From the IMG/VR virus record IMGVR_UViG_3300006805_000205, positions 1 to 20,716 of that record: a stretch of 20,716 nt of DNA. One strand, given 5' to 3'. Made by a program: the position numbers and the translations under genes. Source of the DNA: a virus. Positions 17,099 through 19,180 of this stretch are shown piece after piece. The notes below the pieces were generated by a model. It was not told where the DNA came from, searched no databases, and was given only the letters and a program-made list of their open reading frames with translations. Position 1 is the stretch's first letter; each line of letters begins with the position of its first letter.

Positions 17099-17257
17099 AT
17101 GGAAAAATTAGAAGTAGAAAACTTATTAGATGCAGGAGCAAAAGCTTATACGGACAGCCCAAGTAAAACAAATGCGGGTTTTATCTTAAGATTATTTTGT
17201 AATATTTTTAAACCGAGTACAATTATTAAAATGTTTGCTCACAAACTGACTAAATAA
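17099..17257 (+). CDS. Small unknown protein, last gene before the terminator
   Basis: This 52-residue ORF begins 1 nt after the previous stop and ends 23 nt before a terminator hairpin, so it is the last gene of the late operon. The N-terminal half is acidic and soluble (EKLEVENLLDAGAKAY) and the C-terminal half is basic and amphipathic (ILRLFCNIFKPSTIIKMF), which could associate with membrane. I do not recognise a family. Confidence 0.5.
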   Translation: MEKLEVENLLDAGAKAYTDSPSKTNAGFILRLFCNIFKPSTIIKMFAHKLTK

Positions 17258-17280
17258 AAGCAACTTGACTGAATGTTTTT

Positions 17281-17312
17281 TTAACCTACAATTTATTTGT
17301 GGGTTTTTTTTT
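17281..17312 (+). terminator. Intrinsic terminator ending the late operon
   Basis: The stem AACCTACAA (17283-17291) pairs with TTGTGGGTT (17297-17305), 9 bp with one T-G wobble and a 5-nt loop, followed by an uninterrupted T run to 17312. It closes the structural and lysis operon. Confidence 0.9.
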
Positions 17313-17323
17313 GCTTTAAAGTA

Positions 17324-17353
17324 TTGTTTATCTAAATATTAGTTATATATTTG
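17324..17353 (+). promoter_or_regulatory. Bacteroidota-type promoter
   Basis: TATATTTG (17346-17353) fits the -7 consensus TAnnTTTG used by the Bacteroidota primary sigma factor, and a TTG (17324-17326) lies 19 nt upstream at the -33 position. It follows the late terminator by a few bases. Transcription would start near 17358-17362, at the left arm of the candidate RNA described next. Confidence 0.65.
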
Positions 17354-17359
17354 TAAAAT

Positions 17360-17454
17360 CAATTTGACTAGACACTTATTGATTTAAGAGGTCAAATTGT
17401 AAAAGCAAAATACACCCTTAGCAAAGTAGTCTAGTCCTTTGTTAAGGGTTTTTT
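17360..17454 (+). ncRNA. Candidate structured small RNA, about 95 nt
   Basis: A promoter box ends at 17353 and an intrinsic terminator ends near 17454, with no ORF between them. The predicted transcript opens with a perfect 9-bp stem, CAATTTGAC (17360-17368) with GTCAAATTG (17391-17399), whose 22-nt loop can form an inner CTTA/TAAG stem. The terminator hairpin follows. GACTAGAC (17366-17373) is exactly complementary to GTCTAGTC (17429-17436), which lies in the terminator loop, so the two hairpins could form a pseudoknot or kissing contact. It could be a trans-acting phage RNA, or a leader that attenuates early transcription. I know of no named family that matches. Confidence 0.5.
17415..17454 (+). 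terminator. Intrinsic terminator with 12-bp stem
   Basis: CCCTTAGCAAAG (17415-17426) pairs with CTTTGTTAAGGG (17437-17448) over 12 bp with one G-T wobble. The 10-nt loop is TAGTCTAGTC, and a T run follows at 17449-17454. It would end any transcript from the promoter at 17346, so the genes beginning at 17745 need either readthrough or another promoter. Confidence 0.9.
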
Positions 17455-17585
17455 GTTTCCTAAAAACAATCGTAATAAGAAATTAAGGGGAAAACTTCAA
17501 CAATTTGGCTTATTATTAAAGTACTAAAATGGGTTCAATGGTACAACTGTAAACGAAACTACGACGGGCTAACTAAGTAAATTTC

Positions 17586-17669
17586 AAACAGAGGAAAAAG
17601 GTATAAAATGAAAAATATTTATATCTGGATTAACGAGAAATCAGTTTTTCCCTTAGGCTTCCTCTGTTT
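17586..17669 (+). promoter_or_regulatory. Long-range inverted repeat over a ribosome binding site
   Basis: AAACAGAGGAA (17586-17596) and TTCCTCTGTTT (17659-17669) are perfect 11-bp complements; an inner AAGG/CCTT pair (17598-17601 with 17651-17654) can extend the stem. The left arm contains the purine-rich GAGG 15 nt before ATG 17608, and the right arm lies inside that ORF, so folding would hide the ribosome site. The flanking stretch 17455-17585 shows only weak repeats and no credible gene. Confidence 0.5.
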
Positions 17670-17712
17670 ACTCACCAACTTTAAACTTCAAAGTAATATA
17701 ATAATTAAATAA
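17608..17712 (+). CDS. Possible 34-residue leader peptide
   Basis: This short ORF follows GAGGAAAAAGG, an unusually clear Shine-Dalgarno-like stretch for this AT-rich genome. The peptide starts MKNIYIWINEKSVFPLG and has a short hydrophobic middle. Most of it lies inside the inverted repeat at 17586-17669, so it may serve as a regulatory peptide or be incidental to a structured RNA. No family is recognised. Confidence 0.3.
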   Translation: MKNIYIWINEKSVFPLGFLCLLTNFKLQSNIIIK

Positions 17713-17744
17713 ATAAGTATATAATAATTAATATATAATAGTAT

Positions 17745-17888
17745 ATGAAAAATAATAAATTAGAATTAAATTTAATAATTGAAATATTATATAAATTGAG
17801 TAAAGATGAATTTTACTTTAAAAGCTATGCAAAAGATATTTTGAAAAGTTATATAAAACAAGAAGTTAAAAAGTTAAATAAATGTTAA
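17745..17888 (+). CDS. Small unknown protein, first early-region gene
   Basis: This 47-residue ORF follows a very AT-rich stretch (17700-17744) that has several TATAAT-like strings but no clear TAnnTTTG promoter. The peptide is helical, charged and Lys-rich (KLELNLIIEILYKLSKDEF, then KQEVKKLNKC), and could be a small DNA-binding or regulatory protein. I do not recognise it. Confidence 0.5.
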   Translation: MKNNKLELNLIIEILYKLSKDEFYFKSYAKDILKSYIKQEVKKLNKC

Positions 17889-17925
17889 AGATTAATTAAG
17901 TACTATTATATTAATAAAGTAGTTG

Positions 17926-17933
17926 TATATTTG
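17926..17933 (+). promoter_or_regulatory. Probable promoter of the early gene cluster
   Basis: TATATTTG is identical to the -7 box at 17346-17353. The -33 region (17903-17907) lacks a clear TTG. It lies 24 nt before ATG 17957, giving a short leader, and is the best promoter candidate for the tightly spaced genes that follow. Confidence 0.5.
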
Positions 17934-17956
17934 TTGAAATTAAAACACTAAAAATT

Positions 17957-18133
17957 ATGAAAGTATTTGACAAGGTTAAACACATAAATACAGGAGACTA
18001 TATTTATACTATTAAAAAAATAAATGATACCGTTGCTGTTTTAGAAAAGCCAAAAGAATTGTGGACAATTATTAGCCCAAGATTAACAATAAAAGAATCA
18101 GTTTGTAGAATAGAAAATTTAATAAAAATATAA
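17957..18133 (+). CDS. Small unknown early protein
   Basis: This 58-residue ORF starts in a good context (AAAAATTATG) just downstream of the promoter box at 17926. It contains FDKVKHINTGDYIYTIKKIN and VAVLEKPKELWTIISP, suggesting a small beta-barrel-like fold such as an SH3-type or OB-like domain, though no family is identified. It ends 3 nt before the MazG-like gene. Confidence 0.55.
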   Translation: MKVFDKVKHINTGDYIYTIKKINDTVAVLEKPKELWTIISPRLTIKESVCRIENLIKI

Positions 18134-18743: not shown

Positions 18744-18914
18744 ATGAAATTAAATAAACACATTAAAGAAATTATTATTAATGATACAGAAGAACTATTA
18801 CTACTTTATTCAAAGCGTAAAAAGCTATATTTAAAAGGTGGTAATGATGAGAAATTAAACGATAAAATTCGTGAGTTCCAAAAGAGTACTAATTATAAAA
18901 TTAAAGAGCAATGA
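18744..18914 (+). CDS. Small helical early protein
   Basis: This 56-residue ORF starts at the base after the previous stop and ends in an ATGA overlap with the next. It is predicted to be helical and highly charged, with NDTEELLLLYSKRKKLYLKG and NDKIREFQKSTN, perhaps a short coiled-coil pair. No family is recognised. Confidence 0.55.
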   Translation: MKLNKHIKEIIINDTEELLLLYSKRKKLYLKGGNDEKLNDKIREFQKSTNYKIKEQ

Positions 18915-19180
18915 ATCCTTACGAAATAATATTAAAAGAAGTAGCAACTGGACTTTTAGAAGTTGCAGAAATTAAACCTAACTTTTCAAATGATGCTTTA
19001 TTAGATGCTACTTTAATTTTTCAGACTATATTTATGGACAAGTTTTACGACAAATATAAAAACTATACTTTAGAAACTCAAGAACATTTTGCAATAAAAG
19101 CTGGAGAAAGATTAAGAGAATTAATTATAGATTTTACAGGATTAGATACGCACGAACTAACTAAAAACTATGGAAAATGA
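18911..19180 (+). CDS. Unknown early protein
   Basis: This 89-residue protein is joined by 4-nt ATGA overlaps to both neighbours. It is acidic and helical, with ILKEVATGLLEVAEIKPNFS, then FQTIFMDKFYDKYKN and AGERLRELIIDFTGLD. No membrane segment or catalytic motif is visible. The tight operon structure supports a real gene. Confidence 0.65.
   Translation: MNPYEIILKEVATGLLEVAEIKPNFSNDALLDATLIFQTIFMDKFYDKYKNYTLETQEHFAIKAGERLRELIIDFTGLDTHELTKNYGK

Follow-up and report, generated by a model that had tools for sequence, protein, structure and literature searches.

A candidate family of small structured RNAs with a covarying long-range contact at the late/early gene junction of uncultured Bacteroidota phages

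Between the late and early genes of an uncultured phage lies a stretch of about 130 nt without an open reading frame, which raises the question of whether it encodes an RNA and, if so, what this RNA does. The window, i.e., the whole IMG/VR virus record of 20,716 bases analysed here, carries phage terminase and portal genes. An original prediction made on this DNA had proposed a self-contained small RNA composed of a promoter box, a perfect 9-bp stem and a 12-bp terminator stem, in which eight nucleotides of the first hairpin are exactly complementary to the terminator loop. The putative RNA is called RNA1, its two complementary strands K5 and K3, and the structured region downstream RNA2 (Table 1).

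Direct reading of the window bore out the promoter box and the perfect 9-bp stem, which forms the outer stem of hairpin 1, whereas the terminator stem comprises 13 pairs rather than 12, including one G-U, and is followed by the T run. The promoter is of the Bacteroidota type: the TAnnTTTG motif is the sigma-A -7 box, positioned at -12 to -5 in Flavobacterium (PMC9723704), which places the +1 of RNA1 near position 17358. This promoter is near-identical ahead of the RNA1 copies of five related phage contigs (L083, L191, L192, L193 and L230). The proposed lack of coding capacity also held, as reading frames from any start codon close after at most 7 codons; the longest closed frame in the window copy of RNA1 has 7 codons, frames differ among relatives, and no shared small-protein ORF was found in RNA1. 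RNA1 is predicted to fold with -27.2 kcal/mol (z = -3.9), a value that none of 200 shuffled sequences equalled. K5 and K3 are, as had been claimed, exact reverse complements, and they constitute the only two occurrences of that octamer in the window. Three nucleotides of K5 belong to the hairpin 1 stem and five to its loop; because of this overlap, the full 8-bp contact and the whole of hairpin 1 cannot coexist. The suggestion that TAGAC (17369-17373), in the hairpin 1 loop, could make a 5-bp contact with both stems intact remains possible, but the contact conserved among relatives usually extends over 7-8 bp and, being longer than the stem-sparing version, is in partial competition with the upper part of hairpin 1. 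Among dinucleotide shuffles, 0.16% contain eight nucleotides complementary to the terminator loop within the 60 upstream bases (p = 0.0016). Taken alone, this probability is modest after reading 20 kb, and it is the covariation among relatives that makes the predicted contact solid.

Table 1 Coordinates of the features at the late/early junction of the window.
Feature	Position	Strand	Description or basis
Intrinsic terminator ending the late (lysis) gene operon	17283..17312	+	9-pair stem and T run
Bacteroidota-type promoter of RNA1	17324..17353	+	TTG 17324-17326, 19-nt spacer, TATATTTG 17346-17353
Putative RNA1, ~96 nt, ends in an intrinsic terminator	17358..17454	+	Fold z, 25 distinct homologues, covariance model R1
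Hairpin 1	17360..17399	+	Outer stem CAATTTGAC 17360-17368 / GTCAAATTG 17391-17399; inner stem 17375-17378 / 17385-17388
K5 contact strand GACTAGAC	17366..17373	+	Covaries with K3 in relatives
RNA1 terminator hairpin and T run	17414..17455	+	Arms ACCCTTAGCAAAG 17414-17426 / CTTTGTTAAGGGT 17437-17449
K3 contact strand GTCTAGTC in the terminator loop	17429..17436	+	Covaries with K5
RNA2 (type A), structured non-coding region, ~230 nt	17455..17700	+	11-sequence alignment
Early gene operon promoter	17888..17933	+	TATATTTG at 17926-17933; pattern match, conserved with L083 and L086

Relatives were collected from phage contigs. The first ones, L082 and L083, came from protein-guided scans of IMG/VR and carry no covariation, because their RNA1 differs from that of the window at a single base. 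Using the early protein (18911-19177) as a query yielded the divergent relatives L191, L192, L193 and L195, in which the terminator loop and the hairpin 1 strand have both changed and still match. The set was enlarged with three further DNA patterns (promoter, RNA2 and inner hairpin), none of which contains contact bases; K5 and K3 were thus absent from the DNA patterns and protein queries that retrieved divergent members. The resulting family comprises at least 25 distinct complete RNA1 copies and two truncated ones. RNA1 measures ~83-113 nt as extracted, and a promoter and an intact terminator are present in 25/25 copies, in constant orientation. Several leads were discarded. In L086 the terminator loop has changed, but with a contig starting inside hairpin 1 the partner strand was not recoverable. 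A general scan of all loci for loop-complementary terminators returned many 7-nt, A+T-rich chance matches and was abandoned, and 16 of the 19 matches to a terminator-loop pattern were judged to be chance. The suspected tandem RNA1 of contig G015 proved to be coding or unrelated sequence, and an alternative for hairpin 1, a pseudoknot between AUCAAU at the 5' end and AUUGAU in the loop, varied too little to be judged.

K5 and K3 match over 7-9 consecutive bases in 24/25 RNAs, despite 16 different sequence pairs, among them GACTAGAC/GTCTAGTC (window), GGCTAGAT/ATCTAGCC, GGACTCAA/TTGAGTCC, GGCTAGAC/GTCTAGCC, GGATGGAA/TTCCATCC, GGCTGAAC/GTTCAGCC, GGGTTGCA/TGCAACCC, GGATGCAA/TTGCATCC, GGATGAGA/TCTCATCC and GGACTGAA/TTCAGTCC. 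The sole poor member, L298, retains only 5 consecutive contact pairs. The longest match averages 7.8 nt within an RNA versus 4.35 nt between RNAs, and when strands were re-paired, 0/20,000 permutations reached the observed sum (195; best permuted, 147). For pair counting, K5 and K3 were aligned and the spacer between them was replaced by one constant sequence, so that only the 16 K columns carry information. Under these conditions 94.9% of the K contact cells were paired versus 65.9% in shuffles, double-change cells numbered 40 versus 12.3, and the covariation score was 0.772 versus 0.209 (0/500 shuffles as good), with slid registers giving at most 0.118. Changes on both sides were found in 7 of the 8 base pairs. 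Position 1 is always G-C, and no sequence departs from Watson-Crick pairing at positions 3-6, where two to four pair types occur.

The stems behaved likewise. The outer stem of hairpin 1 is compensated in relatives, e.g., AAUCGG/CCGGUU in L331 and CAAUAUGGC/GCCAUUUUG in L193, and the terminator helices (alignment A2) are 95-100% paired, with double changes. In the terminator and the inner hairpin together, 95-100% of cells are paired, with fewer changes than in K. Within RNA1, the inner hairpin sequence varies least, partly by construction, since it was included in the search pattern for many members. Compensation of the stems and of the loop contact in related phages, which had been set beforehand as the test of the original prediction, was therefore observed. 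Comparison establishes that the sequence of the putative K helix changes freely while its complementarity is kept. We conclude that the existence of RNA1 and the K5-K3 pairing are well supported on comparative grounds, its expression and function being inferred in the absence of any observed transcript.

What surrounds RNA1? As proposed for the window, homologues always lie at the late/early gene junction. Wherever the flanks of a contig are long enough, the lysis genes, often ending with a phosphatase gene, are followed by the promoter, RNA1, 240-430 nt without clear ORF and the early genes. The terminator of the late operon was the only site reported by a terminator scan of 17200-18000 and is present in L083 too. 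The original prediction had left out the second structured RNA located directly downstream. In RNA2 type A, 17 of the 54 predicted pairs are kept through changes on both sides (11 sequences); the window copy has an 11-bp closing stem, AAACAGAGGAA/TTCCTCTGTTT, and does not differ from that of L082 in the first 225 nt. Types B (L086, L192, L230, L284, L337) and C (L267, L292, L318, L327) are unrelated to type A in sequence, yet occupy the same place downstream of RNA1, in a ~250-nt stretch. Examples of these two types (L192 1169-1480, L327 494-860) display repeated GAAA-type loops such as ATTCCGAAAGG. Searching for TAnnTTTG boxes between RNA1 and RNA2 revealed none except one at +26 in L267, other promoter types not being covered, and no terminator was found within 420 nt after RNA2. 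With no Bacteroidota -7 box in between, except in L267, transcription of RNA2 most likely requires read-through from RNA1.

Two side observations concern the same region. Several contigs break off within RNA1 or immediately downstream of it (L086 at position 1; L286, L302 and L365 at their ends), probably because RNA2, near-identical between different phages, splits assemblies. Furthermore, ~430 non-coding nucleotides are nearly identical between the window (17320-17755) and L083 (4709-5142), with one difference from 17324 on, while the flanking genes are 72-86% identical or unrelated, reflecting either recent exchange or very strong constraint.

The large terminase of the window belongs to phrog_2 (E 5.6e-46) and its portal to phrog_33693 (E 2.9e-104), the closest annotated portal being that of Nonlabens phage P12024L (34% identity). 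In support of the claim that the element is undescribed, Rfam 15 gave no match at the gathering threshold over the whole window and, at permissive E-values, nothing near a family cut-off for RNA1 or for RNA2 of type A, B or C. When RNA1 and RNA2 types A, B and C were compared with annotated phages and plasmids at the nucleotide level, only short, weak matches were returned, which were taken as chance. In bacterial genomes, the protein query found no relatives, the RNA1 DNA pattern gave a single chance match in 84,980 species genomes, and the covariance model did not find RNA1 in 395 Bacteroidota genomes, its two matches scoring 35-36 bits, versus ~90 for most true members, and lacking the K contact. 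This absence suggests lytic or rarely integrated phages, although a divergent copy could be missed. Searches of open-access papers turned up no description of an RNA of this kind from phages of Flavobacterium or Bacteroidota. RNA1 belongs to a family of small structured RNAs of uncultured Bacteroidota phages that is, to all appearances, undescribed.

Other units made of a promoter, a short RNA and a terminator, 62-97 nt long and unrelated to RNA1 in sequence, were noticed in related phages: L181 1607-1703 and 3338-3400 (Flavobacterium phage 11b), L182 9837-9898 (Nonlabens phage P12024L), L119 754-827, and L155 779-872, the latter with a GGCTCGAC/GTCGAGTC hairpin. A conserved, probably non-coding stretch (GCAAGTTAGTAAG...GGGAAAGGCTAACATTTTTT) ends another gene block in L084 (200-320), L097 (1080-1200) and L116 (640-780), and is possibly one more structured RNA.

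Which function might the K5-K3 pairing serve? The best overall explanation, which we consider probable, combines an undescribed RNA1 family and K5-K3 pairing with a preferred reading of RNA1 as a leader/attenuator. The leader/attenuator role taken by itself is inferred, and we accept it tentatively, at somewhat less than even confidence. No transcript has been seen, and all evidence comes from DNA. RNA1 would be transcribed from its own promoter at the late/early junction and would end at its intrinsic terminator. K5 would pair with K3 over 7-8 bp once K3 has emerged from the polymerase, at a time when the 3' arm of the terminator is not yet made; the resulting helix would compete with hairpin 1, and would delay or allow closure of the terminator, setting the amount of read-through into RNA2. 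In nested folding, the K helix is part of the minimum-energy fold of 21/25 RNAs when the transcript ends at K3, and hairpin 1 plus the terminator is the best nested fold of the full-length RNA in 24/25. About 5 of the 8 K pairs can persist as a kissing contact in the full RNA, a form that the nested folding behind this step cannot score. A device that forms before the terminator closes and competes with the adjacent hairpin is most readily understood as tuning termination, and hence RNA2 output. The locus also has the layout of an attenuator: promoter, leader and intrinsic terminator are followed by a product that lacks a TAnnTTTG box of its own, except in L267. It counts against this reading that the K contact, unlike a classical antiterminator, leaves the terminator stem itself undisrupted.

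Alternatively, RNA1 could be free-standing, acting in trans or binding a protein, with the K5-K3 pairing only folding or stabilising it and with RNA2 being separate, processed or separately expressed. We regard this as plausible without being convinced of it. The complete promoter and intact terminator of all 25 copies and the compact fold are what such an RNA would display, drifting of K with kept complementarity is the behaviour of an intramolecular structural helix, and the most constant inner hairpin resembles a binding site, though the search pattern selected for it. However, RNA1 is immediately followed by RNA2, or by another 240-430 nt without clear ORF, usually devoid of its own promoter box, and the exposed K3 loop has no conserved second target, K5 usually being its sole perfect complement in nine phage genomes. 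The pairing might also join different RNA1 molecules, as head-to-tail dimers or multimers, or through a terminated K3 binding a nascent K5, providing lineage-specific self-recognition for copy-number or superinfection control. The 16 different matched pairs fit such a code, as do K duplexes of ~-11 kcal/mol, and precedents exist in the phi29 pRNA loops (PMC7357161) and in the RNAI/RNAII loops that set ColE1 incompatibility (PMC9458437). In related pairs, K diverges more than the rest of RNA1 (identity 0.72 versus 0.85) and RNA1 more than RNA2 (0.70 versus 0.85), L253 and L254 sharing 99.6% of RNA2 but 63% of RNA1. Against this reading, covariation cannot separate contacts in cis from contacts in trans, and K shows only a modest excess of change, in which each event counts twice; we therefore do not take this excess to prove diversifying selection. 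We consider contact between molecules unlikely.

G-U pairs are nearly absent from the K helix (1 in 136 cells), while the terminator has several, which is slightly odd for drift at the RNA level. Together with adjacent bases that often differ jointly, e.g., GGATGGAA versus GGACTCAA, this could mean that the repeat pair acts as DNA, either as an inverted repeat to which a protein dimer binds or as one kept perfect by template switching during replication, with no RNA role. We find this very improbable: the offset between the arms varies (51-76 nt) and shows no helical phasing, the terminator loop always contains one arm and hairpin 1 the other, the stems covary separately, and the orientation relative to promoter and terminator is constant. 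Finally, an ordinary promoter-terminator stretch might contain such complementarity by chance, the probability of the match at this site not being negligible over a 20-kb reading. This possibility is refuted by the covariation in 25 distinct RNAs, which no permutation or shuffle reproduced, and can be practically set aside.

Several known systems resemble RNA1. The immunity RNAs CI of phage P4 and c4 of phage P1 are small phage RNAs that pair with a complement on their own leader, thereby terminating transcription; they belong to temperate phages of enterobacteria. RNA1 resembles them in layout, as a putative small phage RNA with a complementary stretch on what would be its own leader; it was found only in phage contigs. 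The phi29 pRNA is likewise a small phage RNA that carries, within a single molecule, two loops or strands that are complementary without being palindromic; its pairing joins separate molecules over 4 bp (PMC7357161). However, pRNA serves another packaging machine, whereas the window phage has an ordinary large terminase, so that the mark of phi29-type packaging, protein-primed with a gp16-type ATPase, is missing; RNA1, moreover, ends in a terminator, and the window lacks an Rfam match. In pT181-type attenuators and ColE1 RNAI/RNAII, loops kiss near or in a terminator, as in RNA1, and the loop sequence sets specificity (PMC3753616, PMC9458437). There, the partner is transcribed antisense from the same DNA, while RNA1 carries both strands on one transcript; minus-strand TAnnTTTG boxes, the only promoter type covered, are absent from 17200-17800 and present in only 2/25 relatives. 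The guanidine-II riboswitch also joins two hairpins by an intramolecular kissing contact, of two base pairs, ahead of an expression platform (PMC7357161), but the RNA1 contact spans 7-8 bp of free sequence, without an obviously controlled downstream coding gene. The kissing principle is shared with phi29 pRNA, ColE1/pT181 and kissing riboswitches, but none of the defining traits that were tested (packaging type, antisense promoter, Rfam score) applies to RNA1.

Taken together, RNA1 is real, conserved and seemingly undescribed, with existence and pairing secure by comparison and the transcript and its function only inferred. To our knowledge, few structured RNAs have been described from phages of Bacteroidota. 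At this locus, which has a fixed place where late and early transcription meet, a long-range contact covaries base pair by base pair across at least 25 distinct sequences, and three sequence types of a second, larger RNA lie beside RNA1. The family constitutes a natural collection of compensatory mutants, making the part played by the loop-terminator contact in termination, as opposed to RNA-RNA recognition, directly testable with reporters. A speculative extension, which we consider improbable, is that RNA1 recognises itself, K5 and K3 pairing between molecules of one phage lineage, such that RNA2 transcription and the early programme would respond only to RNA1 of the same type. If true, this would represent an RNA-only specificity code common to a large group of uncultured Bacteroidota phages.
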